A DNA stretch of 36,322 nucleotides, from assembly GCA_947628505.1 (NCBI GenBank), contig CANRAD010000017.1:1-36322 (forward strand), read 5' to 3'. The stretch's first letter is position 1, and every line of letters starts with the position of its first letter. The notes under the pieces are model-generated. The model saw only the letters and a list, made by a program, of their open reading frames with translations, did no database searches and was not told the origin of the DNA. The stretch is from an uncultured Clostridia bacterium. Its GTDB lineage: Bacteria; Bacillota; Clostridia; Christensenellales; Borkfalkiaceae. The translations under genes were made by a program, and so were the position numbers. Of the stretch, positions 1,904 to 32,000 are shown one piece after another.

Positions 1904-1909
1904 AAAATT

Positions 1910-3628: not shown

Positions 3629-3656
3629 CCCAAGCACGGTTTGCTTGGGGTTTTTT
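3629..3656 (-). terminator. Bidirectional-looking terminator after the DUF1858 gene
   Basis: Arms CCCAAGCA (3629-3636) and TGCTTGGG (3642-3649), with T-rich tails in both directions. It lies 9 bases past the DUF1858 stop. Between it and the sirtuin start (3349-3628) I see no convincing gene. Confidence 0.7.
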
Positions 3657-3664
3657 GCGAACTC

Positions 3665-3862: not shown

Positions 3863-3893
3863 AATACGATCTCCATATTTATTTATTGAAATT

Positions 3894-3923
3894 ATTATAG
3901 CACAACGGAAAACTAATATGCAA
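3894..3923 (-). promoter_or_regulatory. Promoter of the DUF1858 gene
   Basis: Minus strand TTGCAT (3923-3918), 18-bp spacer, TATAAT (3899-3894). Confidence 0.6.
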
Positions 3924-3976
3924 ACCGGCGGAACGCCGTCCGCAAAAGCGCTTTCCGAAACGCGTATTATCCGATT

Positions 3977-4942: not shown

Positions 4943-4977
4943 TTTTTCACCTCAATGATTTATTGCAACCGGATTTC

Positions 4978-5008
4978 GGGGGTGTTACGGAAAATTCCGC
5001 ACACCCCC
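4978..5008 (-). terminator. Hairpin after the Glu-rich protein gene
   Basis: Arms GGGGGTG (4978-4984) and CACCCCC (5002-5008), with an inner CGGAA/TTCCG pair. There is no clear U tract on the minus strand, so it may be a processing or read-through element between this gene and mscS. Confidence 0.4.
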
Positions 5009-5026
5009 TATCCGAACATTGTAAGA

Positions 5027-5947: not shown

Positions 5948-5992
5948 ATTCTTCCTCCGTTATAATCCGCAATTATGCGCATTGTTTATTCA

Positions 5993-6020
5993 ATTATATC
6001 ATAAATAAACAGTTTGTCAA
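5993..6020 (-). promoter_or_regulatory. Promoter of the Glu-rich protein gene
   Basis: Minus strand TTGACA (6020-6015), 16-bp spacer, TATAAT (5998-5993). A perfect 16-bp palindrome, AATCAATATATTGATT, lies 20 bp upstream at 6041-6056 and could bind an activator or repressor. Confidence 0.75.
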
Positions 6021-6115
6021 ATTTATACGCAACAAAAATTAATCAATATATTGATTATTTTTCTCTGTTTTTGACGTTTCGGGACAAGTTGCGTCCGTTT
6101 TTTCGCCGGTCGCCG

Positions 6116-6159
6116 AAAAAACGCCTCCGTTCGCTGTTTTCGCCGCGGCGAGACGGAGG
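6116..6159 (-). terminator. Terminator of parE-parC
   Basis: Arms CCTCCGT (6124-6130) and ACGGAGG (6153-6159) with a GC-rich centre; on the minus strand they are followed by a six-T run (6121-6116). Confidence 0.75.
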
Positions 6160-6173
6160 TCGATACGCTAAAA

Positions 6174-11727: not shown

Positions 11728-13194
11728 TTATAAACAGGAAGGCCGCGCAACGCCCAAAAGAGCGTAAAGCGCGTTCGCTTCGCCGTTTGTAACGCCTTTA
11801 TTCGCCGCCGCCTGATAGAGCTGACGGTAGTTGGGAGAGGTGTTGAGATATTTCCTCTCGAAGTAGTCGTATTTTATGTAGGCGAGGAAATAATAGTAAA
11901 TTCCCTTGCCGCTCATCGCTATGGCCTCGTTGAGATAGTGCACAGCCTTGTCTATTTTGTCGCGAGGGGCCAGGAACGCTTTTCTGCCTTCAAGCAGACA
12001 TACCGCCGCATAGAACAGCACGTCGGGATCGGTTATCGAGCCCTGAGGAGCTTTCTCGAAATACTTCGCGGCCTCGGAATAGTTCTTGTTCTTCACGAGA
12101 GACTTGAAGTGCTCGCCGTCGAATATGGGAGCGCGCTCGCCGCTTCCGGAGTTCCACGCGGAAGTTATGCTGTGCAGTTCCTGACGCATTGAGTCCATGG
12201 CTTCGCGGTCGCGACGTCTTTGCTCTTCTTCCATGCGCCTTTTGGCCTCTTCTTCCTCTTTGCGCTTGCGGCTCGCGGGCGTATGCTCGTTGACGTATCT
12301 CTCGATTTTCGAAGACGCACCGAACGAATTATAGTCGATGCCCTGTATCTTCTGGGAGTATCCCGGCAAGCTCTCCACCGGCGCGCCGGAGAATACGAAA
12401 GTGAGACTGTCGGCGGCTTTGGTTTTCGCCGCTATCATCTCCATATACCTCGCGTACTCGTTTTTAACCCACTTCGTGTCGAGATAATCCTTGTTGCAAC
12501 AAACGATTATCATACATTCGGCGGAGTTCAAAGCGTAAAGGATATGCGCCTCGTAGTCCGTGCCCGTAACCTGTTTGAGAATACGCTCGGAAAAGAACGG
12601 GCGGTATCCCTTGTCTTTGAGGTCGTCGTAAATGGCGTTTGCCATTTCGTAGTCCCGGGTGTGTTTTCCGTCTTCGCCGGTAACTTTCACGCATATGAAC
12701 ACGTCGTATTCCGTGCCGCTCTTGCGGAGATTGTAAAACTTCTCTCTGACGGCGTCGATTTCATTTCCTCTGCGCTCGTATTCCTCGCGTTTTTCGCCAT
12801 CGGAAAGTTCAAGCGCGCGACGGTAGTTTTTGTCGTCGCAGAAACACGTATTTGCCGTGTCGTGGCAAATGGGCCGCCAGCAATTTTCCACTTCGTCTTT
12901 GAGATACTGAACCTTGCACGACGCAACCGCCATTCCGAAGTACGCTTCGGGCTCGGAATCGTCCTCTTCCGAAGCGCGCATGAACTTGGCGTACGCTTCG
13001 GCGAATTTACAATCGTTCATATCCGCCTGCGCTTTGCTTATGAGGTCGAGCGCGGTGGGCAAAGTGGTCTTTTTGGGAAGCGTATACCTGTTTCCGCAAT
13101 AGGGACAAGTGCCTACTTCTTCGGATTTTTCCGCTTCTATTTCAAGCGCGCCTTTGCACGTTTTGCAGAAAAATTCTCTTACAACTTCTTGCAT
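11728..13194 (-). CDS. Zinc-ribbon and TIR-domain protein with helical repeats
   Basis: 488 residues. Order: zinc ribbon (Cys10, Cys13, Cys30, Cys33); TPR-like helices (about 45-130, AEAYAKFMRASEEDDSEPEAYFGMA); TIR domain (about 161-300, starting YDVFICVKV); charged coiled coil (305-340, KRKEEEEAKRRMEEEQRRR); Sel1/TPR-like helices (360-480). In the TIR domain WVKNE (242-246) corresponds to the segment holding the catalytic Glu of SARM1-type NADases (WVHKE), so Glu246 may allow NAD cleavage. TIR enzymes of this type act in phage defence and signalling, but this architecture is also widespread in gut Clostridia with no proven role. Confidence 0.88.
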   Translation of the reverse strand: MQEVVREFFCKTCKGALEIEAEKSEEVGTCPYCGNRYTLPKKTTLPTALDLISKAQADMNDCKFAEAYAKFMRASEEDDSEPEAYFGMAVASCKVQYLKDEVENCWRPICHDTANTCFCDDKNYRRALELSDGEKREEYERRGNEIDAVREKFYNLRKSGTEYDVFICVKVTGEDGKHTRDYEMANAIYDDLKDKGYRPFFSERILKQVTGTDYEAHILYALNSAECMIIVCCNKDYLDTKWVKNEYARYMEMIAAKTKAADSLTFVFSGAPVESLPGYSQKIQGIDYNSFGASSKIERYVNEHTPASRKRKEEEEAKRRMEEEQRRRDREAMDSMRQELHSITSAWNSGSGERAPIFDGEHFKSLVKNKNYSEAAKYFEKAPQGSITDPDVLFYAAVCLLEGRKAFLAPRDKIDKAVHYLNEAIAMSGKGIYYYFLAYIKYDYFERKYLNTSPNYRQLYQAAANKGVTNGEANALYALLGVARPSCL

Positions 13195-18009: not shown

Positions 18010-18030
18010 GGCGACGGAAAATCCGTCGCC
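18010..18030 (-). terminator. Terminator of the virion-head operon
   Basis: Perfect arms GGCGACGGA (18010-18018) and TCCGTCGCC (18022-18030). The minus-strand tail is TTTGAAATT, and it stands 6 bases beyond the last gene's stop. Confidence 0.65.
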
Positions 18031-18036
18031 CCGATT

Positions 18037-18525
18037 TTATTTGCTGTAAGTATACAGCACGTTGTATAAAGTTGTGTAATAACTGCCAAGATATCTGCGC
18101 GCGACGTCGTCCGCCGTATACAGATTCATTCTCTCCGCCGGATCCTCTATGGACAGATAGTAATCCCTGACTATTGCGTATCTGTCGACGTAGGGAAGCG
18201 AATAATCGACTATATATCCGACTTTTTCGCTGTCTTCGTCCTCGTTGGGATAGGGTTCGTTGATTTTGAGAGCATACTGCAACTGTTCTCTTACTATGCC
18301 GACGTCGTATTCGAACTGCGCTTCGAGCTCCACGCGCTTCTGCTCGGCAAGGGACGAATTTTGCATGCCGTTGGTGAAAACGAGCTTGTTGAACAGCTCG
18401 ACGTCCCTCTCCTTTTTGAACTGCAACTCGTTTTTCTTTTTCTGCGCGTTTCTGAGAAGTTGCATCTGCACTGCGGAGAGTTTCCCCAGCTCTTCGTCCG
18501 TTATTTCGATAATGTCAAAAGTCAT
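18037..18525 (-). CDS. Small helical protein, last gene of the head operon
   Basis: 162 residues from ATG 18525, with GGAGG seven bases upstream; it overlaps the preceding gene by 11 bases. The first half is a long charged helix (KLSAVQMQLLRNAQKKKNELQFKKERDVELF and on to about 80), likely coiled coil. The second half is Tyr/Asp-rich (YIVDYSLPYVDRYAIVRDYY). No family recognised. Its position after the connector and beta-rich protein suggests a structural or assembly role. Confidence 0.75.
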   Translation of the reverse strand: MTFDIIEITDEELGKLSAVQMQLLRNAQKKKNELQFKKERDVELFNKLVFTNGMQNSSLAEQKRVELEAQFEYDVGIVREQLQYALKINEPYPNEDEDSEKVGYIVDYSLPYVDRYAIVRDYYLSIEDPAERMNLYTADDVARRYLGSYYTTLYNVLYTYSK

Positions 18526-19747
18526 CTGTAACCTCCGCATACGCCGTCAGCGCCGATACTTTCCCGCCGCCTTTCAGCGAGACGTCGAATTTGACGCCGG
18601 ACATATCCGCGCGGACTCTTCCGCGAGCCCCCGCGATAACGCGCACGTTTCTGCCGTCGGTTATCTCAATGTCGGCTTCGCCGTCCAAATCGATATATGT
18701 AAGCGCCTTTCTCTTTACCGTGCCAAAATCGATATCTTTGCATATATATTGATATTTTTCCGCTTTTTGCAGTGTGTAAAGTCTGTTCCCCGAACTCATG
18801 AGGGCCGTTCCGCCTCCGTATGCGCCCGACGAAATCGAAACGTCGACAAGGCACATATCTTTCGAAAAGACGTCATAGCGGTACAAAACTTTTCGGGAGA
18901 GCGCGGCGGAATACGCCGCCGCGAAATAATATCTTCCGTCCGCCCCGAACGCCGATACGGGCGAAGTCATATCTCCCGCAAGCGCGTGGTCGCACAGTGA
19001 AATTTTCGAGCCGTCGAAAGAATACATTCCGTCTTCCGTGCAGAAAAACAGCTTCCCGCCGACTTCCGCCGCCGTTCCCGCGATTGCCGACGGACATTCG
19101 CACGCGTCTTCGAGCTTGAAATTCTCCGGCGCGCCGTATGCGGAGAGCAAAGATATCCCGCGTTCCCTCATTATGACGAGCCTGTCTGAAAAATCGTGTA
19201 GGGAAAGTATCTTGCCCAAGCGTTCCGAAAGATATACGTAGCCCGCGCCGGATATGCCATCGATCCAATCCTCGGCGCCGCCCTCGCCCGACCATTTAAG
19301 AAGATTTCCGTCCGAAGGACTGACGCCGAAGAGCCTTCCGCAGCGGAAAGCGGCCGCTTCGAGCGAAAGCCCCTGCGCGCCCCTTATCGTGCCGTTGGGA
19401 AACTTCTTGTAAGCACAGCTTGCGCACGCCGCAAAACCGTATTTTTCGGACATGTTCGTAACGTCCGTCAGAAAGCCTTTTTCGCCGTCGAAAGCTCCGC
19501 AATCGACGAGCGAGTTTCCCTTCACCGAAAAATATATCCTGCCGCCGCCGCAGACGAAGAAGCCCTTTGCCGCGGGCGAATATCCGAGCAGAGAAAGTTC
19601 CTCTTGCGCTTCGCCCGCGACCGCCTCGCGCGCTTCGAGGGCGGGCGTTACCGCTCCGCCCTCCTTTTTGCAGTTCAACGGCAACGCGCCGACGTACTGC
19701 AAGAGGTCGAGACGGCGGACGGAAGTTTTAGCCGCGTCGCCGTTCAT
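18515..19747 (-). CDS. Beta-propeller-like protein of the head operon
   Basis: 410 residues from ATG 19747, which overlaps the connector stop by ATGA and has GAGGAGA upstream; the frame continues further upstream but only across the connector gene. It is rich in short repeated strand motifs (GKLFFCTEDGMYSFDGSKI, GRYYFAAAYS, KVLYRYDVFSKDMCLVD, NRLYTLQK), as in propeller proteins. The location after the connector is where P22-like phages encode neck/tail-closure proteins (gp10 is beta-rich). The role is inferred from position, and sequence identity to gp10 is not claimed. Confidence 0.75.
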   Translation of the reverse strand: MNGDAAKTSVRRLDLLQYVGALPLNCKKEGGAVTPALEAREAVAGEAQEELSLLGYSPAAKGFFVCGGGRIYFSVKGNSLVDCGAFDGEKGFLTDVTNMSEKYGFAACASCAYKKFPNGTIRGAQGLSLEAAAFRCGRLFGVSPSDGNLLKWSGEGGAEDWIDGISGAGYVYLSERLGKILSLHDFSDRLVIMRERGISLLSAYGAPENFKLEDACECPSAIAGTAAEVGGKLFFCTEDGMYSFDGSKISLCDHALAGDMTSPVSAFGADGRYYFAAAYSAALSRKVLYRYDVFSKDMCLVDVSISSGAYGGGTALMSSGNRLYTLQKAEKYQYICKDIDFGTVKRKALTYIDLDGEADIEITDGRNVRVIAGARGRVRADMSGVKFDVSLKGGGKVSALTAYAEVTDDF

Positions 19748-20298
19748 ACCCATCTCCTCGGCGGAATACTCGCGCCTCTCGCGCTCTTCCGGCGCGCGCG
19801 GTCGATCTGTGCGCGGTATTTGCTCTCCCACATATCCGCGGCCTCTATCTCGCCTTTTATGAGGCAATATTCCGCCGCCGCGCCGCATGCTTCGAGCGTT
19901 TCGTCCACCTCGGCAGAATATTCGCAATCGTCGTCCAGCTCTTTTTTTACGGGCGCATATTCATACGTTACTTCAATCCGCGTCGCTTCGGTTGCGATAT
20001 ACGTGGGGAAAATTTCATACGCCGTTTCTTTTTCGCCGGATACCACCGATAAAATCTTTACCGGAGGGCTGTCGAAATCCCTGAAATAGTACTTTCCGTT
20101 ATAGGATATCATAGTCTGCGTGCGCACGAGCGGGAAATAGTAGCGCGCAAGTTCGTCCTCAACCGCGTTTATGCAGAACACCAGAGTTCTGACGAGTTCG
20201 GCGTCGTTCTCGGGGATTTCTCCCGAGGCCACTTTCCCGGCGACGTCCTCTCTGCCGAGAAAACGCAGAGCGCGCGCCGCCACTTCTTTTATCTGCAT
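19744..20298 (-). CDS. Head-tail connector (adaptor) protein
   Basis: 184 residues from ATG 20298 (GAGGAG nine bases upstream). The N-terminal helices (IKEVAARALRFLGREDVAGKV, AELVRTLVFCINAVEDELARYYF) and the beta segment KILSVVSGEKETAYEIFPTYI resemble phage gp6/gp4-type adaptors that bind the portal ring. The C-terminal helix EYCLIKGEIEAADMWESKYR is also typical. The order capsid then connector fits tailed-phage head modules. The exact family is uncertain. Confidence 0.7.
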   Translation of the reverse strand: MQIKEVAARALRFLGREDVAGKVASGEIPENDAELVRTLVFCINAVEDELARYYFPLVRTQTMISYNGKYYFRDFDSPPVKILSVVSGEKETAYEIFPTYIATEATRIEVTYEYAPVKKELDDDCEYSAEVDETLEACGAAAEYCLIKGEIEAADMWESKYRAQIDRARRKSARGASIPPRRWV

Positions 20299-20309
20299 CC
20301 GCTCTCTCC

Positions 20310-21461
20310 TCAAACGTTTATTATCTTAGCCTGTCCGCAAGGTTTTTTGCATATAAGTTCGGCGTATTTTACGAGCGTTGCACCGTAAGCCGCCTTGCCG
20401 GGAATCTGTTTTAAGATTTTGCCGCTTTCGTCCTCCAACCACTCCCAATCGCAGAGCTGACTCAAAACGAAATCGTCCGTGTTGACGAACAGTATCTCGC
20501 CCTCGGGGCAGTATTTGTCGGCGTATACGGGCACGTCGTTCACGGTTACTACGCCCGTTCCCGTGCGCGCGTCGATAGTGTTCACAACTCTCTTTCTGTC
20601 GGCGATGAGCGCGGCGATTTTCTTCCTCGTCTTATAGGAGCAGAGTATCATATTTATCTTGCTGTTGAAGTTCTCCTCCATATAGTCCAACACGTCGCAC
20701 AGCATTTCCTCCGTGAGCGAGTTCTCCGCATCCGCTATATAGGGCGCGAAATAGGGCTCTTCGCTCTTATCGTATCCGTAGAGAACGGACGAGCCGAAGA
20801 TTGCGCCCAAGCCCGTAAGTTCGTTTCCCTGAGAGCCGTGCACGCAAACGGTTGCGTTGAGCACGGGATCGTTGTTTTCGGTGTTTATCTTAATAGTGGA
20901 ATTTTTTCTGTCTATGGCCACGATATAGACGCCTTTGCCCTCGGAGGGCTGGCCCGCCGCGGGAACTATGTCTATCTGCATGCCCACGTAAAACTCCCTG
21001 AGATTATCCACCTTGAAAGTGTATTCGTCGACCGCCGAGAGCACTTTGCAGAGCTGTCCGGAGCCGTCGCCGTAGAGCATGCGCTGGAAATTCTGTCTCG
21101 CGCTCGAAACGAGCCCCTCCATCTCGGCGTTCACTATGTTTACGAACGCGCCCGAATTGTCGCGCGAGGCCCTTAAAACCTTGTCGCTCACCTCTATTGC
21201 GCCGTATATGTTTTTAAGGGGCGAAGTTATCGAGAGATATCTGTTCTTGTAAGGATCGGGCAGTTCCCCGTCTTCGGCGCAAGCCTTGATGTTGCCCGAA
21301 TTGCCGCGCACGACGGCTATGTTGACTTCTTTCCCGCTTATGTTTTCGGCAGTTTTTTCTATTGCCGCAAAAAACGGCGAAATACCGTCGTTGAGTTGAG
21401 CCGAAACGGCTTTGAGGTAGTATTCTTTTAACGCTTTATCGGCATTTTCGATTGTTATCAA
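20310..21461 (-). CDS. HK97-fold major capsid protein
   Basis: 383 residues. The start is TTG 21461, eight bases after AAGGAG; no ATG fits the frame. The order N-arm helix, spine helix (VNIVNAEMEGLVSSARQNFQRML), beta insert, A-domain (MILCSYKTRKKIAALIADRK, VVTVNDVPVYADKYCPEGEILFVNTDDF) and C-terminal strand (AAYGATLVKYAELICKKP) is typical of HK97-fold capsids. The pattern after the capsid core (DVPVYADxYxPxGxIxFxN) is one of the most widespread of this fold. Full length, no frameshift. Confidence 0.88.
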   Translation of the reverse strand: MITIENADKALKEYYLKAVSAQLNDGISPFFAAIEKTAENISGKEVNIAVVRGNSGNIKACAEDGELPDPYKNRYLSITSPLKNIYGAIEVSDKVLRASRDNSGAFVNIVNAEMEGLVSSARQNFQRMLYGDGSGQLCKVLSAVDEYTFKVDNLREFYVGMQIDIVPAAGQPSEGKGVYIVAIDRKNSTIKINTENNDPVLNATVCVHGSQGNELTGLGAIFGSSVLYGYDKSEEPYFAPYIADAENSLTEEMLCDVLDYMEENFNSKINMILCSYKTRKKIAALIADRKRVVNTIDARTGTGVVTVNDVPVYADKYCPEGEILFVNTDDFVLSQLCDWEWLEDESGKILKQIPGKAAYGATLVKYAELICKKPCGQAKIINV

Positions 21462-21478
21462 AATTCATTCTCCTTTAT

Positions 21479-21898
21479 TTATATATCCAGAAATTGTTTT
21501 GCGAGCTTTCCCGCCTCTTTGACCGATTTGGGAGCGTCCGACGGCGCCGCGCACGCAACGCCGCCCGCAAGCATCGGCGCGCTCTTCCGAACGGCGATAT
21601 CTTTGAGATATTCGCCGACCACCGCGTTTTTTACGCGCTCGTTGGAGAGCGCCGCCTCTATGAGTTGCTCTTCGCCGGGAGAAGGGAGCGGTTCCCCGGG
21701 AATATTCGCTCCTTGTTTCTCCTCGAGTTCTTTCAGCCTCTGACTTCGCCGGGTGAACTCGGCTTCGAGACTACGATAGGCCGATAAAAGGGCTTCGACG
21801 CTTCTGAACTTGCCGATATCCGGCCCTGTATCCATCTCTTTTCTCTCTTCCGCCTCCGCGGCGACCGTTTCGCAAGTCATTTGTTCTCCGTTATCCAT
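21479..21898 (-). CDS. Capsid scaffolding protein
   Basis: 139 residues, acidic, lying between portal and capsid genes where scaffold genes usually are. Features: KFRSVEALLSAYRSLEAEFTRRSQ, a motif at the N-terminus of many small phage scaffolds, then a short coiled coil, a Pro-rich linker, and a C-terminal helix with Lys (VKEAGKLAKQFLDI), which in other phages binds capsid subunits. ATG 21898 follows AAAGGAGG and overlaps the portal gene's end by 22 bases. No protease domain. Confidence 0.75.
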   Translation of the reverse strand: MDNGEQMTCETVAAEAEERKEMDTGPDIGKFRSVEALLSAYRSLEAEFTRRSQRLKELEEKQGANIPGEPLPSPGEEQLIEAALSNERVKNAVVGEYLKDIAVRKSAPMLAGGVACAAPSDAPKSVKEAGKLAKQFLDI

Positions 21899-23706
21899 TT
21901 ATCCTCCTTTTTGCGCTCGTTAAGTTTTTGTCTGTGAATGAGAATATGCGCATATATTCTCTTTTCCTGCTCTTTCTCCCTTTTCGCCGAGAGAAGATAC
22001 GCTGTGTGCTCCTCTATGTGCGCCGAATGGTCGTCGTAATCCTTCACCTCGGCCTCCTCTCTTTCCATAACGGCGTTTTCCTCCGCCGCGCGGGCAAAGT
22101 TCATCTCCTTCAAATCCCGCCCCGCCGAGAACGACGAATAGCCGAGCATATAGAGTATTTTTCTCTTTGAAGAAGGCGATATAACGCCGTTCTCGTCCGA
22201 GAAAAGCCCTTTTTCCATCAACTCGTAAATGACGGTGCGCCTCTGCGCGGGCGTCATGTTCAACTCGCTGTCGGCCTCGATGACGACGTCGTCGGAAGAT
22301 ATGTCGCTGCCTTTGAAACAGCACACCTCGTTAACTCCGTTTTCGCCCGCGTACTTCAAAAGCCTCGCCTCGCCGGCGAATTGTCTGAAAAGGCGCAACA
22401 CCTGCTTTCCGACCTCTTTCATGGCGCGTTTGAGACTCTGATAGGCTACGTTGAGGCGGGCGTCCGTCTGCTCGATTATGAGTTGCAAGCCCGTGGCCGA
22501 AGTTATCCCGGCAAAGCTGTCGGCGCCCTCCGAAAAACCGCTCGTTCCGGACACGCGCACGAACTCCGCCAAGAGGTTTTCTTCCTCTTTCCAGAACTCG
22601 TCGGGAACGCTTCCGAGGGACAGCATTTCCGGCGGCGTTCCGCCCTGTCTGTAAACGAGTATCTTGCCGGGCGCCAGCCCGTCGTCCGTCAACTCGTCCA
22701 TGTCCACGGAGCCGTCCTCCACGGCTACGGTTCCCATAGATATCCTGTTGAGAAATTCGTGTTTTCGGTTTTTCACCGCGTTATACGCCCTTTGCAGAGG
22801 TATAAGTCTTTCGACCACGCTGCTGCCGAAAAAACTTCCCGCGACGGGCACGGACACCTGTTTTACGAACGGATATCCGCGCGTTCCGTCCGCGCCGTTG
22901 ATATACGGGAGCACGCCGTCATAGAGGAGCTTGCCGCCCGCCGTAACGGAGAACCTCCCCTCCGGACGCGCGCGGGTGGGCTTTTCGTAGCGTTCGAGCA
23001 CGAGTTCGTAAGCCTTCGATTCGTCCTCTCCGCCGCTCAAAACGAAATTGAGTTCCTTTGCCTTTCTGCCTTCGAGTCTGACGCCGTAAATCTCGTAAAT
23101 TTCGCACACGGGCAGCGCTTTCGCGTGAATTATGCTCGGTTGCGCGGCTATGCTCTCCTCTTTCTCCGAATACGGAAAAATTTCAAACGGCGACACGGCG
23201 GAAATCTGCACGTTGCCCTCTCTTATGGTTCCGCCGCCGTCAGCCATGCCGACGCGCGCTCCCGTCTCGGAATTCCAGCATATCTTGTAAAACGCCGTGC
23301 CGCATATCTCCGACCACGACGTTGCGGCGCTAAGAACTCCGTCGAGATCGGTATCTTCGCCGGCGGAAGCGAGTATGGCGGCCGCGAGATTTGCGGCGCG
23401 CTTGTCCTTTTCGTCCGCGGACGCCGCGCGCACGGCGAGTTGCGGACGTATGCCGGAAAGTTTGGAAAGGCGCGTGTCCACTACCGGTGCGATGTGATTG
23501 AATACCCTTCTTTGCTCCCACGCGTACTTCTTATCCACCGGACATATCTCCCCCGATCTGTCCAGCGCGCAATATTGTTCGCCCTTTACGAAATTGCAAT
23601 TCAGCTGCCACGCGCGTTCGAGCGGTTTTCTCCTCTTGCGCCTTTTTAAAAAATCTTCTTCTATGTCCGCGCACAGTTGCGACGCGGTGTCGAGTTCATC
23701 AGTCAA
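21877..23706 (-). CDS. P22-type portal protein
   Basis: 609 residues. The start is TTG 23706, nine bases after AAGGAGG; it overlaps the upstream stop by 8 bases. N-terminal ...RAWQLNCNFVKGEQY...RVFNHIAPVVDTRLSKLSGIRPQ and the central stem/wing ATGLQLIIEQTDARLNVAYQSLKRAMKEVGKQVLRL, plus ADSELNMTPAQRRTVIYELMEKGLF, match the P22 gp1-like portal family (Pfam PF16510). It forms the dodecameric ring through which DNA is packaged. It ends in a long charged helical region (about 550-609). Length is right for the family and the frame is intact. Confidence 0.9.
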   Translation of the reverse strand: MTDELDTASQLCADIEEDFLKRRKRRKPLERAWQLNCNFVKGEQYCALDRSGEICPVDKKYAWEQRRVFNHIAPVVDTRLSKLSGIRPQLAVRAASADEKDKRAANLAAAILASAGEDTDLDGVLSAATSWSEICGTAFYKICWNSETGARVGMADGGGTIREGNVQISAVSPFEIFPYSEKEESIAAQPSIIHAKALPVCEIYEIYGVRLEGRKAKELNFVLSGGEDESKAYELVLERYEKPTRARPEGRFSVTAGGKLLYDGVLPYINGADGTRGYPFVKQVSVPVAGSFFGSSVVERLIPLQRAYNAVKNRKHEFLNRISMGTVAVEDGSVDMDELTDDGLAPGKILVYRQGGTPPEMLSLGSVPDEFWKEEENLLAEFVRVSGTSGFSEGADSFAGITSATGLQLIIEQTDARLNVAYQSLKRAMKEVGKQVLRLFRQFAGEARLLKYAGENGVNEVCCFKGSDISSDDVVIEADSELNMTPAQRRTVIYELMEKGLFSDENGVISPSSKRKILYMLGYSSFSAGRDLKEMNFARAAEENAVMEREEAEVKDYDDHSAHIEEHTAYLLSAKREKEQEKRIYAHILIHRQKLNERKKEDKWITENK

Positions 23707-23956
23707 ATTTTGCCTCCTTCAATAATGCGGTAAGTTTGTTTTTCTCCGCTTCGAGTTCCTCGTCGGTAATCTCCCCGTTTTCGCCCAAAATGAGTTTGAC
23801 GGCCTTGATGTCCGGCGGAATCTCTCTCCTTGTTATTTTTTTTCTCACAAGCACGAGTTCGCCGTTTTCAACGGTGAATTCTTCCACCGTTTCGCTCGCC
23901 GAAAGCCCCGTGGCGCACTTTACGAGCGCCTCTTTTACGATATCTCCTCCTTGCAA
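23699..23956 (-). CDS. Small conserved protein between terminase and portal
   Basis: 85 residues. The best start is TTG 23956, about five bases after GAAGGAGGG. The pattern KEALVKCATGLSASETVEEF...REIPPDIKAVKLIL...DEELEAEKNKLTALLKEA is one that I recognise from unnamed small proteins encoded beside terminases in Clostridia prophages. A beta-rich first half and a helical second half suggest a small assembly factor. A second GGAGGAG lies just inside the gene, so initiation is not certain. Confidence 0.7.
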   Translation of the reverse strand: MQGGDIVKEALVKCATGLSASETVEEFTVENGELVLVRKKITRREIPPDIKAVKLILGENGEITDEELEAEKNKLTALLKEAKFD

Positions 23957-23987
23957 TTTTCCCTCCTTCGCAATTTGTCGCCTCCTT

Positions 23988-25424
23988 TCAGTCTTCGTAA
24001 GCGCGCTTCCCGAGTTTCCTTATACGCCTGAGCTTGTCTTGCAGAATGACGCTGTTTTCCCTTTCTTTCGGGGGGCGCGGTCTCGTCATTATATAATATC
24101 TCAACTCGTCCATGCAGTGGTCGTCCCGCTTTACCGGCATATCTCCCGCCGCCCAGAAATAGCCGCGAAACTCTTCTATCATATTGACGCACGTCGAAAA
24201 TATATAGATATCCGGTTCGCCGTTGCCGCGCTTCAAATAGCTTTTAACGCGCGATATCCCCGCGAACACGTCCTTGTTGACGTTGGGATTGACGAGTATT
24301 CCGCGTTCGCAAAACAGCTCGGAAACCGATTTGGAAGAGGCCAGCGTGCGCTGATTGGCCGCGCTGTCGATGAGCGCCCTTATTCTGCCCGCGGAATCGG
24401 TTTTCCAGCCGAGTTTACGGCTTATGTCCTTTATCGCGCGTGCATGGAAATCAACGTCCCTGCCCGCCGCGAAGTGCTCCGCCACCACGTATACGTTCCC
24501 GTCCCAATCCACGCAATACCAATGCGCCGAGAGCGGATTGTTCAATCCCGGATCTATGGATATCGCGTCCTGCCATTCCGACGGAATCTCGAAGGGCTCT
24601 ATAACGTGCACGCTTTCGTCGAACTCCGGATAAACGAGCCCTTTGCCCTCCGAAAATCTGCCGAACTTGCGCGCGTCGAGAGCTTCCGCGCTCAAAGATT
24701 TTTCAAGGAGCGCGGTCTCCTTGCGGGAGAGAAACGGATTGTCTTCCCAAGTCATGAATTCGTGCCATATCTGAGGATTTTTGCCTCTGTTCAGATAGAT
24801 TTCGCCGTATACGAACGTCTTGCCTTTCAACGGCGTCATCGTGCCGAATATATCCCCGCGGCGATCCATAACCCGCATAAGACACTCCTCGTACACATCC
24901 TCGGGCGGCTCTTCGTCGAACCACACGAAATCGAGGCTGGATCCCTGAAACTTTTCCCTGCCCTGGTCGCAACTTTTGAAGCCGAGCGTAGATATCCCCC
25001 CGAAAACGTTTTTAACCGATATCTGGTCGATTACGCCGTTCGCCGGGTTGTCCTTGCGGCCGGATATCATAACTATGTCGGCTATCCATCTCTTCGGCAG
25101 ATATTGAAGTATCTTCGCCTGAGCGACGTCGCGTTGAACCTGTTGCGAAAGCGAAACGCACCAACCGAAGACGTCCTTTTTGTTCTTGCGGTAGGGGTGT
25201 ATCCCCCTCAGCATCCACACGCACTCCACGGCCCCGCACTCGGTTTTCCCCGAACGGTTGCCGCCGAACACCCAACGGTTGCGCTTTTTGCACTTGTGAA
25301 ACGCAAGTTGCTTTTTGTGCTTCTTTCTGCCGGAATTATAGGCGGAGAGCCTGTCCGAACCCCTGCGCTTTTCAAGCTCTTTTTCTATCTCGTCTATGCG
25401 AGATATTATATCTTCCTTCCGCAT
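23988..25424 (-). CDS. terL: Terminase large subunit
   Basis: 478 residues. The ATP motor that packages DNA: Walker A FGGNRSGKT (53-61), Walker B LDFVWFDEE (164-172) with catalytic Glu, coupling motif GTMTP (194-198). The C-terminal nuclease has ISIDPGL (Asp291), ALIDSAANQ and DDHCMDELRYY, the three acidic clusters of the RNase H-like fold. ATG 25424 is preceded by AAGGGG. It is the first gene of the operon. No small-subunit gene lies next to it; the helical protein at 26107 is upstream on the same strand, separated by the convergent gene. Confidence 0.92.
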   Translation of the reverse strand: MRKEDIISRIDEIEKELEKRRGSDRLSAYNSGRKKHKKQLAFHKCKKRNRWVFGGNRSGKTECGAVECVWMLRGIHPYRKNKKDVFGWCVSLSQQVQRDVAQAKILQYLPKRWIADIVMISGRKDNPANGVIDQISVKNVFGGISTLGFKSCDQGREKFQGSSLDFVWFDEEPPEDVYEECLMRVMDRRGDIFGTMTPLKGKTFVYGEIYLNRGKNPQIWHEFMTWEDNPFLSRKETALLEKSLSAEALDARKFGRFSEGKGLVYPEFDESVHVIEPFEIPSEWQDAISIDPGLNNPLSAHWYCVDWDGNVYVVAEHFAAGRDVDFHARAIKDISRKLGWKTDSAGRIRALIDSAANQRTLASSKSVSELFCERGILVNPNVNKDVFAGISRVKSYLKRGNGEPDIYIFSTCVNMIEEFRGYFWAAGDMPVKRDDHCMDELRYYIMTRPRPPKERENSVILQDKLRRIRKLGKRAYED

Positions 25425-25472: not shown

Positions 25473-25478
25473 TATAAT
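25473..25478 (+). promoter_or_regulatory. -10 box next to a start codon
   Basis: TATAAT with eight bases to ATG 25487. No convincing -35: the region 17 bp upstream is a T tract. Confidence 0.5.
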
Positions 25479-25486
25479 TGCCTGGT

Positions 25487-26128
25487 ATGAAACTCCTCTC
25501 ATTCCTCTCCCTTATCGCAATGGTCATCCCCGTCGCGCCGCCCGCGCGCGCCCTCGCCGATAAATCGCCCGTTTACGCATACGCCTGTACACGGGAAAGC
25601 TACTTCTGCTCCGAACCGGACGAGCGCAAGGCGCTCTTTGCCGTGCCGTATACATATTGCGTGCGCATTTTAAGCGACGAGGGCGAATGGTATATGGTCA
25701 GCTACGCCGAAAATTCGGATATATATATCGAACTCACGGGATATTGCCTCAAATCCGGCTTGCGGCAAGTTGCAAGCCCTCCGGAAAACCTGTATCTCAA
25801 TCTGCCCGTAACCATAACGTTCGAAGCCACGCCGCCCGCGGGCTCGCTTCCGACAATAGGCCAGATAGACGTCGTCGCGGCATATTACGGCAACTATACG
25901 TTCGGCGCGGAAAAATATTCATACGTTCTGTACAACGGTTCGTTCGGCTATATTCTCGGTTCAACCGAAAATTATCCCGTAAACGAACTGCCGCCGGAAA
26001 AGACCGAACCCCCGCCGACGGACGATTCTCCCGCAATCCTCTCGGCGATCATAATAATAGTTGCGGCCGCGGCGATAACCGTGCTCTTCATATCTGGAAG
26101 AGCCCGTTACGGCGGCAAAAGGCAATAA
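25487..26128 (+). CDS. Exported SH3-like membrane-anchored protein
   Basis: 213 residues from ATG 25487. A signal peptide (MKLLSFLSLIAMVIPVAPPARA) is followed by an SH3-like beta region (30-90: VYAYACTRESYFCSEPDERKA...VRILSDEGEWYMVSYAE), a second such module (about 130-165), a Pro-rich spacer, a membrane helix (about 183-203) and a short basic tail. SH3b domains usually bind cell wall. No Shine-Dalgarno; the -10 lies next to the ATG. It diverges from the terminase gene and is convergent with 26107, overlapping it by 22 bases. Confidence 0.7.
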   Translation: MKLLSFLSLIAMVIPVAPPARALADKSPVYAYACTRESYFCSEPDERKALFAVPYTYCVRILSDEGEWYMVSYAENSDIYIELTGYCLKSGLRQVASPPENLYLNLPVTITFEATPPAGSLPTIGQIDVVAAYYGNYTFGAEKYSYVLYNGSFGYILGSTENYPVNELPPEKTEPPPTDDSPAILSAIIIIVAAAAITVLFISGRARYGGKRQ

Positions 26129-26502
26129 TATTCGTTCACAAGCCTCATCCCCTCCGAAAACCTCTCCGCAATTCTCGCATGTCGGGCGAACTTCATAAGC
26201 GACTTCTTTATCCCCCGTCTGTGCGCGGCGTCGCTCATTCCTTCGCCGCAGCGCATAGACGAGTACTCTTCAAGCGCTTTTTTGTCCTCCTCGCTCATTT
26301 CCGAAATGACTCCGTCGAGATATCCCCACAACTTCGAAAGTTCTTCCTTTGCGCCGACGAGCGCCAGAACGCGCGAGACCTCCCTTTCCCCGTCGCTTTG
26401 AACGCGGCACGACGAACACGCAACTTTCAATATCAGCTTGTCCAAAGTCGAGTTCAACCCCTCCGCGCCGAAATAAAATTTAAGAATTCTCTTGCTTTTC
26501 AA
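26107..26502 (-). CDS. Small helical protein upstream of the terminase, unknown function
   Basis: 131 residues. The start codon is TTG 26502, with no good ribosome site. All-helical prediction: KRILKFYFGAEGLNSTLDKLILKVACSS, a central AKEELSKLWGYLDGVISEMSEEDKKALEEYSSM and a basic helix RRGIKKSLMKFARHARIAERF. The middle and end resemble the layout of small phage late-gene activators (ArpU/RinA-like, sigma region 4-like), but I cannot claim homology. It could regulate the head operon or be a divergent small terminase. Confidence 0.6.
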   Translation of the reverse strand: MKSKRILKFYFGAEGLNSTLDKLILKVACSSCRVQSDGEREVSRVLALVGAKEELSKLWGYLDGVISEMSEEDKKALEEYSSMRCGEGMSDAAHRRGIKKSLMKFARHARIAERFSEGMRLVNEYYCLLPP

Positions 26503-26653
26503 TTTTTTTACGTCCGTTTATGTAAACAAATGTTTGTATTGTAATTGGATTATAACCGTTAAATATGACAAAAAACGCATAATTAAAAAATAAATTATTA
26601 TATTTCGGACAATTTTTATGTGGACATTTGGTTTTTTAACCTCAATCAAACAG

Positions 26654-26682
26654 TTTACAAGCACCGAAAGGTGTGATATAAT
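26654..26682 (+). promoter_or_regulatory. Promoter of the exported beta-rich protein, leaderless
   Basis: TTTACA (26654-26659), 17-bp spacer, TATAAT (26677-26682); seven bases to GTG 26690. The rest of 26503-26650 is A+T-rich and has no gene that I see. Confidence 0.8.
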
Positions 26683-26689
26683 TTCTAAC

Positions 26690-28018
26690 GTGAAAAAACG
26701 GTTGTTGGCTACAATTGCAATTTGCCTTACGGCGGCTTCGGCGTTTCCGTCCGCAATGAACGTATACGCCCTCTCTTCGCGCGCCGCGGACGGCGGATAT
26801 CCCGCCGACTTCACTCAGACTCAGACGTTCGAGGCTCTGAGCGATTTTGCCGTGGGCGGCGAAGACGGATATGCCTTTGCCGACGGCAACAACCTCTACG
26901 TTATAGACGACGGCGTAAGAATGTCTTACAGAATGGCCACGGCTGTTACGGCCGTCGACTATGCCGACGGAGAATTTTATTACAGCGTGGCGGGCAATCC
27001 CTCCTTTGTGTATCTTCTGCCCGAGAGCCAGCAACTTTTGCCGGGCAATGTCTCCGAGCACGTAATGCAGTCTCTCGAACCGAGATTTTCGCACGGCGAT
27101 TATTCCTATAATCTCAGCGGCGGCAAGATAATAATATGGGACGGAAACGAGAGCGTCATAACTCTCGAAGGTCCTTTTTCAAATCTGAAACTCTACGGGG
27201 ACGACCTCTACGCGATAAAGGACAACAAACTTTCCAAAATCACCGACAAGGCCGAAGAGCTTGACAGCAAGATATACGATTACACGGACTACTCTCCCTC
27301 TGCCGACGTCAAAAGCGCCGAGGCCAAAGAGATATTGAAGGAGTATTCTTCATCGCCCAAGCTCGTAACGCTCACGGGCAACAGTCATATGACGCCCGTC
27401 GATCTCGACGACGTGGCCGGCGAAAACTTTGTTCCGTCCGGCGACACCCGGCCGACGGTCGAGGGCGAGAACGCGCTTCTGCTCTGCAAGACGGACAAGG
27501 TCGCCGTAATCTCCATTCGCGGCGACGCGTACATACTCAACCCGGACTGCGTTAAAGATTACATAGGAACGTCCGGAATAACCGAGACGGCGGACGGCAG
27601 ACAGGCGAGCGTAAAAGTTTCCGATGGACATATTTACGCTCTTCCGTACATATCGGCGGCGACCGTTCTCGAAGGCGCAAATTTAACGGGCGGCGAGCAC
27701 ATAACGGTTGAATCAAAGCTCACCTCCGGGCAATTCGAATACGGCGGGTTCTACAAGATAAGCACGCCCGACGGCAAAACGGGATACGTTCCCGTAGGTT
27801 ATGTTTCCGAGTTCAATTTCAGCGAAAATCCGCCCGAAAAGATAGACGATCCCTCGCCGCAGAACGAGGACATGATAAAGACCGTCGCGCTCGTGCTCGT
27901 GGTTGTCGCGCTCGTGTTGGTAGCCGTTGGATATCTCGCCTATGTGGGCACTTCCGACAAGAAGAAAAAGAACAAAAAGCGCAAAGACGAGCAAGAGAAC
28001 GAAGAAGACAAGAGTTGA
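26690..28018 (+). CDS. Exported beta-rich protein with SH3-like domain and anchor
   Basis: 442 residues from GTG 26690, which directly starts the signal peptide (MKKRLLATIAICLTAASAFPSA). The upstream open frame would push the signal peptide inside, so I reject it. Residues 50-200 are short repeated strands with Asp-Gly turns (GYAFADGNNLYVIDDGV, GEFYYSVAGN, GGKIIIWDGNE, DDLYAIKDNKLSKI), propeller-like. An SH3-like module (about 290-400, VTVESK...GGFYKISTPDGKTGYVPVGYVSEF) resembles the 25487 protein. A membrane helix (about 405-427) and a Lys/Glu-rich tail follow. Leaderless, by promoter position. Confidence 0.75.
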   Translation: MKKRLLATIAICLTAASAFPSAMNVYALSSRAADGGYPADFTQTQTFEALSDFAVGGEDGYAFADGNNLYVIDDGVRMSYRMATAVTAVDYADGEFYYSVAGNPSFVYLLPESQQLLPGNVSEHVMQSLEPRFSHGDYSYNLSGGKIIIWDGNESVITLEGPFSNLKLYGDDLYAIKDNKLSKITDKAEELDSKIYDYTDYSPSADVKSAEAKEILKEYSSSPKLVTLTGNSHMTPVDLDDVAGENFVPSGDTRPTVEGENALLLCKTDKVAVISIRGDAYILNPDCVKDYIGTSGITETADGRQASVKVSDGHIYALPYISAATVLEGANLTGGEHITVESKLTSGQFEYGGFYKISTPDGKTGYVPVGYVSEFNFSENPPEKIDDPSPQNEDMIKTVALVLVVVALVLVAVGYLAYVGTSDKKKKNKKRKDEQENEEDKS

Positions 28019-28992: not shown

Positions 28993-30516
28993 TTATTTTA
29001 TATACATTTCCGTAAGTATGGGTATTTGCCTTATGGTATTATAGCCGTGTAGGGTATAGGATATTTTCTTGAAATCTCTGTAAAATAAAAAGCCCGACGT
29101 GCTGTCTGCACTATCGGACTTATCGTCGTTTATTTTTATAGGGCTGTTGAAGTAAATCTCTATTTTATCGTCATACAGTATTATTTCTTTTACAAGGTAG
29201 TTTATGAGCATTTGCGGCTCTAACGCCAACGCCTGTCGGTAATATTCCCGCATTATATTGTCGGGGATTTTTATTGCCGTTTTCTCTTTTTCAATGAGTA
29301 TTCGCCGTTCCAAATCTTCCTGCTGTTCTTCGAGTTCGTGTAGCCGCTTATTCGTAGTGGCTGAAATAATACCGTTTTCAATGGCGTACATAAGATTTTC
29401 CAGCGACTTTGTAACTTTGGCTTTCTCTCTTGTTAGCGTTTTTAAGTTGAGATTATCCGTTATCTGTTTATCCTGAATTTTCAAAAGCTCTCTTACGATT
29501 TTATCAATCGCCTGCGGCTTACTCAATTCGTCTATAACCGCGTTAATGACAAGCTCTTCCAAATACTCTTTATTTACAACCGTCTTTTTACAGCCGTTAT
29601 GGTCTGATTTCCGTCCTATGCACTTGTAATAGTGTATGACCTCGCCATTTCGTGCTGTGCCTGTTTCTGCGCTTATAGGTCTGCCGCAATATCCGCACTT
29701 TAATTTGCCACGCAAAAGATAGACTGTTTTTACACTGCGTTTGCCGAATTTGTTGGCGTTTACTATCTGCCTTACGCTCTCAAATAACTGCTTGTCTATT
29801 ATCGGCGGGTACATATTAGCTACTATCTCATCGCCCTTTGTATATACTCCCGAATACTTTTCGTTGGCGAGTATTCCGTAAACGGTGTTACGCGCAAACT
29901 GTCTGCCCTTATATGTAACGCCTTTTGCGGTTAGCTCTGCAATTATATCCTTTACAAATACGCCTTTGGAATATTGCAAATACATAAATCGCACTGCCTC
30001 GGCTTGCATATCGTCTATGACTAACCTTTGATTTTCCACTCTGTAACCGTATGGAACGCCGCCGCCTTGGTATAAACCCTTTAACCTGTTTTCCCTCATG
30101 CCGCGGCTGACCTTTTGGGAAAGCTCCGCAGAATAGTATTGGTTCATACCTTCGAGCAAACTTTCGAGAATAATGCCCTCCGGCGTGTCGGGGATATTTT
30201 CCATTGCGGATAATACCTTAACGCCGTTATTTTTTAATGTACGCTTGTGTATGGTGCTTTCATACTTGTTACGGCTGAAACGGTCTAACTTGTAGACTAA
30301 AACATAATTCCACTCTTTACGCGCACTATCCTTAATCATACGCTGGAAATCGGGGCGGTTGTCGTTAGTTCCCGTCATTGCCCTGTCTATGTAAGTGTTG
30401 AGTATGAGGATATTATTGCGCTTGGCATATTCCTCGCACACGCGAAGTTGTCCGTCTATGGACTGTTCTGTCTGTTGGTCGCAAGAGTATCTTGCATAAA
30501 TCACTGCTGTTTTCAT
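28993..30516 (-). CDS. Large serine recombinase (site-specific integrase)
   Basis: 507 residues from ATG 30516, preceded by AAAGGAG; upstream in-frame codons lack a site. The resolvase domain has catalytic Ser11 in YARYSCDQQTEQS, and YVLVYKLDRFSRNKYE. The Recombinase domain contains GVPYGYRVENQRLVID...NTVYGILANEKYSGVY. A zinc ribbon (KCGYCGRPIS...YYKCIGRK...GCKK) and coiled coil (residues 370-430) follow. These proteins integrate and excise phages, ICEs and mobilisable elements by staggered cuts at short att sites. It is the likely mover of this element. Confidence 0.95.
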   Translation of the reverse strand: MKTAVIYARYSCDQQTEQSIDGQLRVCEEYAKRNNILILNTYIDRAMTGTNDNRPDFQRMIKDSARKEWNYVLVYKLDRFSRNKYESTIHKRTLKNNGVKVLSAMENIPDTPEGIILESLLEGMNQYYSAELSQKVSRGMRENRLKGLYQGGGVPYGYRVENQRLVIDDMQAEAVRFMYLQYSKGVFVKDIIAELTAKGVTYKGRQFARNTVYGILANEKYSGVYTKGDEIVANMYPPIIDKQLFESVRQIVNANKFGKRSVKTVYLLRGKLKCGYCGRPISAETGTARNGEVIHYYKCIGRKSDHNGCKKTVVNKEYLEELVINAVIDELSKPQAIDKIVRELLKIQDKQITDNLNLKTLTREKAKVTKSLENLMYAIENGIISATTNKRLHELEEQQEDLERRILIEKEKTAIKIPDNIMREYYRQALALEPQMLINYLVKEIILYDDKIEIYFNSPIKINDDKSDSADSTSGFLFYRDFKKISYTLHGYNTIRQIPILTEMYIK

Positions 30517-30609
30517 TGTTTTTAACTCCTTTGATTTTATTTTGCCTTTCGGCAAGGTGCGGGCAAACGGCTTGGACTGTTTACAGCTATATCCAAAATT
30601 TCTTTATAT

Positions 30610-30656
30610 CGCTGTCAAGGGTTGCCGAATGGCAATTCACTTTACCCTTGACAGCG
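30610..30656. repeat. Nested inverted repeat upstream of the recombinase gene
   Basis: Perfect 13-bp arms CGCTGTCAAGGGT (30610-30622) and ACCCTTGACAGCG (30644-30656) enclose a second palindrome, TTGCC-GAAT-GGCAA. Each outer arm carries a TTGACA -35 in the outward direction, so it may be the recombinase promoter/operator or a recombination or replication site. Confidence 0.7.
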
Positions 30657-30697
30657 CAGGCAAAGTCGTTTACGCTCCGCCGGACGAAAGACAAAAA

Positions 30698-31579
30698 TCA
30701 GTTGCATTTGGGCATTTTAGATATTACTTCGGGGCTTACCTTGCCCATAAGCACGCCCTCATCAATACATTGGAAATTGTCAAATAGAAGTAGCTTCCTA
30801 TCGTCCACGCCGTACCCGCAGGCTATATCCTCGTCCAAAATATCGCTCCTGAAATAGGTAGGCAGTTTACCGCCGTATATCAGCCGTTCGTTGCTCTTGC
30901 CTATGTACTTCAATAGATATTTGACGGACTGCATTATATCTTCCTGCCGCTCCAATACTTTAAAATCGTTTCTGCCGAAGTGCTTTAAAAAGTGTGTATT
31001 TTGGTAGGTTGTTTGCACTTTGTGTTGCTTGGTGCTGTAATCTTTTACTTCTATAAGCTCGCCTATCATTTGGGGGATATAAAATATTCCGTGAAAGTGT
31101 AGCCTCTGCATTTCTGGTGAACGTTCCCAAACGCCTATGTATTTCCAGCCCTTACGGCTTGCAAGGTGTTTTAAAGTGTTGTATAACTTTCTTTTAAAGG
31201 TTTCTTCCGTGTGCAGGGCGTTGTCGTATGTGAACGTTACAAAGTAATTCCACTGTTGCAGATATACTTTTCTCATTAGCCGTGTGCGCCGTTTCATTGC
31301 GTTGGTATTTTCCCGCTCTATGTTCTTCTCTATAAATTCTGTTACCTGCTCTGCCGTGGCAAATTCGCCTTTCAGTTGCTCTGCTAAAAATTTCTTGCGT
31401 TCCCGCTTGGGTAGCTGTTGACTTTCCGTGTACGCGCTCTTGAATTTCTCTTTGGGGGTGGGAGTAATAGACTGTTGTTTCTGCCTATGTCTTTTGCGCT
31501 TACCGCTCGGAAAGTTATCCGGGGGAATAGCTATGTAATGACTTCCGTCGTAATAGACTTTGGTGTTTCTATATGGCAT
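30698..31579 (-). CDS. Rolling-circle replication initiator (HUH Rep)
   Basis: 293 residues. After a basic N-terminus come the HUH endonuclease motifs: motif I FVTFTYDN (113-120), motif II LHFHGIFYI (160-168, metal-binding His161 and His163), motif III SVKYLLKYIGK (218-228; Tyr221 or Tyr225 as nicking Tyr). The spacing fits plasmid and phage-satellite Rep proteins that nick one strand and stay bound to the 5' end. It has no helicase domain. It starts 5 bases after the small gene. A Rep next to a serine recombinase suggests an element with a circular replicating form. Confidence 0.85.
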   Translation of the reverse strand: MPYRNTKVYYDGSHYIAIPPDNFPSGKRKRHRQKQQSITPTPKEKFKSAYTESQQLPKRERKKFLAEQLKGEFATAEQVTEFIEKNIERENTNAMKRRTRLMRKVYLQQWNYFVTFTYDNALHTEETFKRKLYNTLKHLASRKGWKYIGVWERSPEMQRLHFHGIFYIPQMIGELIEVKDYSTKQHKVQTTYQNTHFLKHFGRNDFKVLERQEDIMQSVKYLLKYIGKSNERLIYGGKLPTYFRSDILDEDIACGYGVDDRKLLLFDNFQCIDEGVLMGKVSPEVISKMPKCN

Positions 31580-31584
31580 AACTT

Positions 31585-31719
31585 TTATTTCCCGTCCTGC
31601 GATTTTAGTTGCTGGATATGCGCCAAAAGCGTTTCATAAAACGAACGCCGCTCGGTTTCGGGCAATAATTGAATATTAGGTTTGCCTATTGTTTCAACTT
31701 GCAATTCAGTTTTCTGCAC
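31585..31719 (-). CDS. Small accessory protein upstream of rep
   Basis: 44 residues from GTG 31719 (GGAGG eight bases upstream). A longer in-frame version from ATG 31827 has no ribosome site. Sequence starts MQKTELQVETIGKPNIQLLP and ends with a helix (RRSFYETLLAHIQQLKSQ). I recognise this pattern from short proteins next to such Rep genes in Firmicutes; its function is unknown. Upstream sequence contains GTATACC, possibly a -10. Confidence 0.6.
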   Translation of the reverse strand: MQKTELQVETIGKPNIQLLPETERRSFYETLLAHIQQLKSQDGK

Positions 31720-32000
31720 TTTTGGCACCTCCTTGACCGCTGTTTTCGTATGGTATACTACATAAACATGAAGCCTAATTTCCTGTTTCAAAAAGTTTTT
31801 TGGTTTTTTATTAAGGGTTATCCACATAACCTCTCATATCTTTCAGTACAAAAATTTGCAAATGACAACCGGTTTCGGAAAAAAGTTTAAAAAATTTTTA
31901 AAATAGAGCGATTTACACCCGAAAAACGTTCAAAGTAGCCGCCTTGCAAAATAAAAAAACGCCCTATGCAAAAAAGCATAAGGCTATGAAATCTGCCGAT

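Follow-up and report, generated by a model that had tools for sequence, protein, structure and literature searches.

The window analysed here is the whole of contig CANRAD010000017.1 (36,322 bases), from a 1.71-Mb genome of the uncultured genus Candidatus Coproplasma, assembled in 40 contigs and 98.7% complete. NCBI taxonomy places the genus in Clostridia, Eubacteriales incertae sedis; its GTDB placement we take to be Borkfalkiaceae, Christensenellales. Eight open genes with short overlaps, all on the minus strand (25424 to 18037), form an operon for a phage-type head. They are given below in 5′ to 3′ order, with E values after the family names.

23988..25424, minus strand: large terminase (TerL), ATPase and nuclease motifs kept; Pfam PF03237 (Terminase_6N) 5.4e-14, PF17289 5.3e-5
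23699..23956, minus strand: 85-aa protein between TerL and portal; no family above cut-off (Pfam, PHROG), relatives in other families of the order (order-level hidden Markov model, HMM)
21877..23706, minus strand: portal, P22/SU10 type; PF16510 (P22_portal) 2.7e-15, PF23899 1.1e-11, phrog_156 2e-34
21479..21898, minus strand: scaffold-like helical protein, 139 aa, assigned by position; no family above cut-off (Pfam, PHROG), HMM matches in other families of the order
20310..21461, minus strand: major capsid protein; phrog_14242 'major head protein' 1e-40; PF05065 0.0096, below cut-off
19744..20313, minus strand: head-tail adaptor, SU10 type; PF24175 (SU10_adaptor) 3.1e-4, below Pfam cut-off
18515..19753, minus strand: propeller-like hub; phrog_3287 'virion structural protein' 8.9e-7; a relative matches phrog_511 at 1.7e-11
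18037..18525, minus strand: helical, coiled-coil-like protein G8, 167 aa (162 aa from a later start); no family above cut-off in direct Pfam/PHROG search
18010..18030, no strand assigned: terminator-like hairpin after the last gene

A first-pass annotation, made from the letters of the window, had described tightly packed genes on one strand with all frames open, and the open reading frame (ORF) check over 18037-25424 agrees. The gene identities that it proposed largely hold, TerL, portal and capsid being firm and the adaptor and hub weaker (Pfam, PHROG). It had likened the codon style to that of parC/parE, and usage is indeed host-like: GC content at third codon positions (GC3) is 0.660 for the operon and, for six housekeeping genes taken from the window, 0.662, with a codon-usage correlation of 0.952 between the two sets. 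An rRNA-modification operon and a terminator had been named as the boundaries. The former is in place downstream of the operon, as a SAM (S-adenosylmethionine)-dependent methyltransferase gene (PF10672, 7.8e-14) followed by one for an RNA pseudouridylate synthase (PF00849, 2.8e-30); the hairpin is also present, but such sites are no commoner in the window (14) than in shuffles of it (13.8). Terminase_6N has a single match in the genome by profile search, and no second operon locus was found.

The TerL profile matches three solved structures in the PDB, 5oe8 (1.5e-12), 4zni (7.2e-5) and 4dkw (1.1e-4), which we take to be headful-type terminases of G20C-, Sf6- and P22-like phages. The catalytic motifs are kept, as first described: 12 aligned rows are invariant in Walker A (apart from S or T at one position), in Walker B (D-E-E) and in the acidic residues D291, D353, D435 and D439, presumably those of the nuclease, the motif roles being assigned on our general understanding of such enzymes. 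For the capsid protein an HK97 fold is suggested by its family; its profile had a sole PDB match, at E 0.045. Nothing better than E 0.023 was found in the PDB for the hub, the operon's least conserved gene (26-34% identity across 20 Coproplasma loci), whose start is more likely at 19753, matching the starts of its relatives; this corrects an earlier reading. G8 had been regarded as an orphan, a view we dropped on a profile-profile match (probability 96%, E 2.3e-9) to a downstream protein of ~305-330 aa in other families, which itself matches DUF7934 (PF25588) at 1.7e-121; G8 is probably a short relative of DUF7934. No small terminase (TerS) was recognisable in Pfam and PHROG searches of the operon proteins.

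The first-pass annotation had proposed a domesticated capsid system such as a gene transfer agent (GTA), to be supported by a fixed locus beside the methyltransferase and a ratio of nonsynonymous to synonymous substitution rates (dN/dS) well below 1, and contradicted by att repeats or phage genes nearby, by absence from sister genomes or by decay of the frames. The capsid gene occurs in 33 of 37 Coproplasma genomes, this one included, and in 8 of 24 other genomes of the order in the same survey. It is single-copy in Coproplasma, but in two pieces in G004 and G011 (G, L and f numbers are our handles for genomes, loci and families). Wherever the relevant flank is visible in the other Coproplasma genomes, the methyltransferase adjoins the operon (27/27; 19 + 8), so the locus is fixed as anticipated. 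The four misses comprise one proven empty site (G025) and three that are not assessable: the contig of G009 ends at the methyltransferase, and G001 and G034, 87% and 77% complete, have no close methyltransferase match either. By profile coverage, all eight genes are intact in 25 of the 33 loci, and five more (G004, G012, G020, G021 and G027) are incomplete through contig ends only.

Selection was measured by pairwise Nei-Gojobori dN/dS on pairs with dS of 0.1-1.2. For this and for the neighbour-gene tree, 72 Coproplasma-type loci were reduced to 59 by merging identical capsid DNA and then to those with the needed genes. The measurement covered five head genes and gene y, described below. Median values were lowest for TerL (0.143, 104 pairs) among the head genes, followed by G8 (0.222, 50 pairs), portal (0.269, 135), capsid (0.303, 213) and adaptor (0.447, 76); gene y gave 0.346 (66). 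For comparison, medians were 0.143 for parE (68 pairs), 0.170 for rluD (381), 0.198 for the methyltransferase (220) and 0.268 for an 810-aa neighbour (25). The five head-gene medians (0.14-0.45) thus lie well below 1, and the highest single pair reaches 0.86 (adaptor); since pairs share branches, the values are not independent.

The operon has also followed its host. Among 42 lineages, all 17 well supported clades of a methyltransferase+rluD tree were recovered in a tree of TerL+portal+capsid; conversely, the neighbour-gene tree recovered 25 of the 30 operon clades with support. There was no supported conflict, and label shuffles recovered at most 3 clades. Because methyltransferase and rluD adjoin the operon, the comparison was repeated with the more distant secA (frame chosen by homology; row L048 at 87% identity). 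In 24 lineages, the operon tree recovered 12 of 13 supported secA clades and the secA tree 15 of 18 supported operon clades, again with no supported conflict, and the distance correlation was 0.82. With the 19 lineages that have secA on another contig, 9 of 9 clades were recovered, and 9 of 12 in reverse, with no supported conflict. Within Coproplasma the operon has co-diversified with its host, mostly by vertical inheritance.

These results bear on the view that the operon is a prophage remnant, or a mobile satellite that makes its own capsids and borrows tails. Capsid-forming phage-inducible chromosomal islands (PICIs), such satellites, encode head and packaging functions and no tail, and are mobile, with integrase and replication genes. 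The operon shares with them the head-only gene set, and two genes that could speak for mobility lie about 3.5 kb beyond it.

28993..30555, beyond the tRNA cluster: serine recombinase; phrog_95 integrase 2.6e-110
30698..31579, beyond the tRNA cluster: Rep-like gene (Rep ORF2/G2P-like)

The first-pass annotation had stated that the window holds no phage life-cycle genes. That stands for the operon, where Pfam and PHROG revealed no integrase, replication, tail or lysis gene such as a temperate phage would carry, and fails for the window, given these two genes. Together with an 80-aa ORF they form a probable small mobile element (28993-31827). Its GC3 is 0.491, against 0.66 in the operon and housekeeping genes, and among 20 same-genus stretches only L041 has a recombinase match (partial, 30%) and none a match to the Rep gene; with its other codon usage and lack of conservation we rejected it as a vehicle for the operon. 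The recombinase is alone among the ten window genes outside the operon in having a phage-integration or phage-function match; the rRNA methyltransferase has weaker matches of DNA-methyltransferase type. Within the window, to which that scan was confined (relatives' flanks were not scanned for att sites or phage genes), the operon is not flanked by a pair of long direct or att-like repeats. A tyrosine-recombinase-like gene beside the operon in one genome, G041, would favour a satellite or remnant. Against it stand the same flank in 27 of 27 genomes, in a unit without integrase, together with purifying selection, co-diversification and host codon usage, and we regard it as very improbable.

Three further genes lie on the upstream side, before a cluster of six tRNA genes.

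25478..26128, plus strand, divergent from TerL: gene y, with a signal-like N terminus, SH3-like repeats and a C-terminal membrane anchor (by eye); no Pfam match
26107..26502, minus strand: gene z, related to regulators of sigma-70-region-4 type; 76 columns align with the order-level z proteins in a profile-profile comparison (probability 97.4%, E 1.5e-11)
26618..28018, plus strand: gene v, SH3_3-containing protein (PF08239 5.8e-4, below cut-off), membrane anchor by eye

Gene y adjoins TerL in 30 of 33 Coproplasma loci, the other three (G004, G012, G027) being cut by contig ends, and z was found in 29, with contig ends cutting the same three and G029. In the empty-site genome y and z are gone together with the operon. 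Gene y is also found near TerL in other families, at other sites. Among 101 further loci (L199-L299), many of them short, y was recognised in 31 and z in 18. Both probably belong to the operon unit; v, retained at the empty site, is a neighbour whose membership is uncertain. The sigma-like character of z comes from the order level: the protein at the z place in L060 matches Sigma70_r4_2 at 2.6e-6, and of three order-level z proteins searched in Pfam, L257 matches it at 3.3e-4, below cut-off, and L206 and L213 match nothing. Large proteins comparable to v, judged by eye to have a membrane anchor and a signal-like start, are encoded upstream of the operon on the opposite strand in several groups (L205 1527-4214 and seven other loci). 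Elsewhere in the window, a protein with TIR and TPR domains is encoded at 11728-13194, near parC/parE-like genes.

Relatives extend well beyond the genus. In a draw of 248 genomes of the order, the capsid profile matched in 139, in 58 of 115 genera, with one match each in 132; carriers include genomes of family f26 of 0.8-1.3 Mb. Eight loci from eight other families hold all seven genes from TerL to hub in five cases, the other three being cut by contig ends, and the methyltransferase pair was not found beside the operon in any of the eight. In several other families the hub and the DUF7934 protein are followed by two holins, BhlA (PF10960, 2.7e-18) and Phage_holin_1 (1.9e-4), in clusters of 9 and 13 loci, counts that depend on ORF picking. 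The largest ORF cluster (53 loci) was judged to consist mostly of antisense ORFs of the operon and was ignored. In certain groups the site is once more common to several loci: L202, L204, L206, L210 and L315 have the same downstream gene block, and the f26 loci L312 and L313 share 17 ORF pairs including both flanks. A small CxxC protein lies between the 85-aa-type small gene and the portal in other families (L066 12749-12988 and 28 other loci), with no Coproplasma locus in its cluster. L314, also of f26 (genome G184), has two tandem capsid genes at 8035-10379.

Whether the order acquired the operon once, in its ancestor, or by repeated capture from circulating podoviruses is a matter of history, and either is compatible with a domesticated function. 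For repeated capture speak the different sites in different families, the draw genomes in which no capsid gene was found, and the existence of distant phage-type relatives. Against it, the capsid tree groups families: f19 rows form one clade (9/9, support 1.0), nine f1 rows fall in a clade of 13 with four rows lacking a family label (support 0.53), and a clade of 10 (support 0.38) includes the eight f26 rows. The presence of y and z with the operon at more than one site also argues against separate captures, which we think less likely than not. In a draw across the class, the capsid matched in 26 of 391 genomes, 12 of them in other orders. Family f42, of another order, carries it in only 3 of 38 genomes and therefore looks phage-like there. 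In f70, of another order too, a capsid relative is present in 5 of 5 genomes (L131-L134, L138, L145), with more than one match in two, so that f70 is perhaps a second fixed lineage.

Against 50,697 phage records the capsid gave 13 matches, at up to 26.5% identity among the 12 listed, and TerL gave 591, at 28-33% among the 12 listed. The capsid profile finds 63 loci in IMG/VR, most with the same gene order and 50 on contigs below 17 kb; the short contigs with the operon order (e.g. among L238-L288) are likely to be host fragments, which suggests that viral-contig databases may file parts of this chromosomal operon as viruses. One distant relative, L289 (29% identity, 61-kb contig), looks like a real phage, since it encodes two proteins absent from the operon, one tail-fibre-like and the other a small terminase (phrog_606, 9e-17).

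GTAs are known from few lineages. Among phages, P22-, Sf6- and SU10-type podoviruses have their portal, adaptor and terminase families in common with the operon; unlike them, the Coproplasma operon has no recognised small terminase, integrase, replication, tail-spike or lysis gene. According to the part of PMC9662315 on which we draw, six features mark a GTA: proteins derived from Caudoviricetes, packaging of mostly random host DNA, a fully endogenised genome (often at several loci), a head too small to package that genome in full, mostly vertical inheritance, and delivery of DNA to other cells. Three of the six are found here, and they are those that sequence can address. The proteins match Caudoviricete families in Pfam, PHROG and PDB profile comparisons; the operon lies among host genes in Coproplasma and in other groups; and within Coproplasma it co-diversifies with neighbour genes and secA. 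The RcGTA-type agents (Rhodogtaviriformidae), as the same part of PMC9662315 describes them, are likewise Caudoviricete-derived, endogenised and vertically inherited; they have tailed particles and genes at several loci, whereas here a P22/SU10-type head operon stands without recognised tail genes.

The closest known system, likened by description, would be FpGTA I/II of Faecalibacterium prausnitzii, for which particles of ~40 nm with ~9 kb of DNA have been demonstrated (PMC12946183, 2026) and which that report, in the portion considered here, calls the first such element in the human gut microbiome. From that account, both belong to gut Clostridia, and in both a short podovirus-like operon encodes TerL, portal, scaffold and capsid, has other phage-like genes besides and lacks replication genes. 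Upstream of its TerL, FpGTA may have a TerS; its ten genes occupy 10.5 kb, and some strains carry a second operon, for baseplate, fibre, holin and endolysin. The present operon differs in having no recognised TerS, in the y and z genes alongside, in its lineage and in the congruence with host trees. The same portion of PMC12946183 assigns 3 of 25 GTA-like packaging events to Christensenellaceae and names, from its gene-cluster search, four bins of other genera; the operon is a candidate for the gene cluster behind the Christensenellaceae events, which would lend no more than indirect support to packaging of random host DNA. Apart from PMC12946183, the papers listed in literature searches (preprints not included), judged by titles and abstract openings, offer no description of GTAs in this order.

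Much as first proposed, the unit is probably a domesticated head operon of podovirus type, passed on vertically and acting as a GTA-like particle; fixed site, dN/dS and congruent trees favour domestication, and the particle would package and transfer DNA. The observations behind this reading are the gene content, the fixed locus, purifying selection and co-diversification in Coproplasma, the linked y and z, and the sporadic relatives in one other family. The operon might be switched on in a few cells by z as activator or, where z has eroded, by some other regulator. Capsid and scaffold would assemble on the P22-type portal, and the terminase would load chromosomal DNA into the heads, nearly or wholly regardless of sequence, as its intact motor and the missing TerS suggest. 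The adaptor and hub would close the head, and G8 may be a plug or an ejection part. In several other families, which have the genes for it, the two holins of the same operon would release the particles.

Several observations weigh against a GTA-like particle, or against its being kept everywhere. The capsid gene was not found in 109 of the 248 order genomes drawn. No tail, receptor-binding or lysis gene was recognised in the Coproplasma operon with Pfam and PHROG, fibres and endolysins elsewhere not having been searched for, and in a two-family search BhlA and Phage_holin_1 were absent from all 16 Coproplasma genomes, which leaves particle release unexplained there and is the main gap. Of three 20-kb stretches from f26, two have no terminase next to the operon: L312 and L313, from genomes of 0.8-0.9 Mb, have head operon and holin-like genes and no terminase within 20 kb, and L314 has one. 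The helix-turn-helix part of z has apparently been lost in Coproplasma, where z corresponds to the N-terminal part of the order-level profile and the 76 matched columns precede that motif. The tyrosine-recombinase-like gene of G041 (by eye; L063 11480-12394) stands directly downstream of a holin-like gene. The secA control is partly linked: 5 of 29 genomes have it on the contig of the capsid gene, at a distance of 13-25 kb. Decay of frames, absent from most loci, does occur: three of the 33 have a broken gene (capsid in G011, TerL in G032, and adaptor in G023, with an in-frame stop in a locus also cut by a contig end), and the copy in G252 (L317, about 578-8955) is interrupted, a TerL fragment being followed by an island and then adaptor and hub. 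G025 is a clean empty site, from which operon, y and z are gone and at which v and the methyltransferase remain. The loss in G025, the island in G252 and the three broken frames show that the operon is dispensable or that some bins are erroneous. As separate observations, the G252 island holds a C5 cytosine methylase and two ThsB-TIR (Thoeris-like) proteins, and further mobile-looking genes lie beyond the recombinase-like gene in G041.

Some of these points would suit a domesticated capsid that does something other than transfer genes, for example forming an intracellular compartment (DNA-filled or empty), acting as a killing or decoy particle (PBSX-like) or interfering with infecting phages. 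Such a role would leave selection and inheritance looking no different; the want of a recognised tail fibre or lysis gene in the Coproplasma operon, the two f26 stretches with no terminase beside the operon and the conserved membrane partner y would all agree with it. The invariant ATPase and nuclease residues of TerL and its low dN/dS fit DNA packaging instead, and the holins of other families fit release, so that we judge a role of this kind unlikely.

If the operon indeed serves a GTA-like particle, a wider proposal can be made, to which we give somewhat less than an even chance. It would be an ancient, tail-less, podovirus-derived GTA lineage with its own sigma-like activator and a membrane partner, one that a large part of this order of gut Clostridia has inherited and that even genomes of 0.8-1.3 Mb have kept. 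It would also be the unnamed cluster behind the Christensenellaceae packaging, having shed its lysis genes in Coproplasma, where packaged DNA is perhaps released or used by another route. Should the operon make GTA particles, domesticated phage heads would serve DNA exchange throughout an order of gut Clostridia, most of them uncultured. There would then be a regulator and a partner gene that can be tested, and a gene cluster for packaging events so far known only as DNA.

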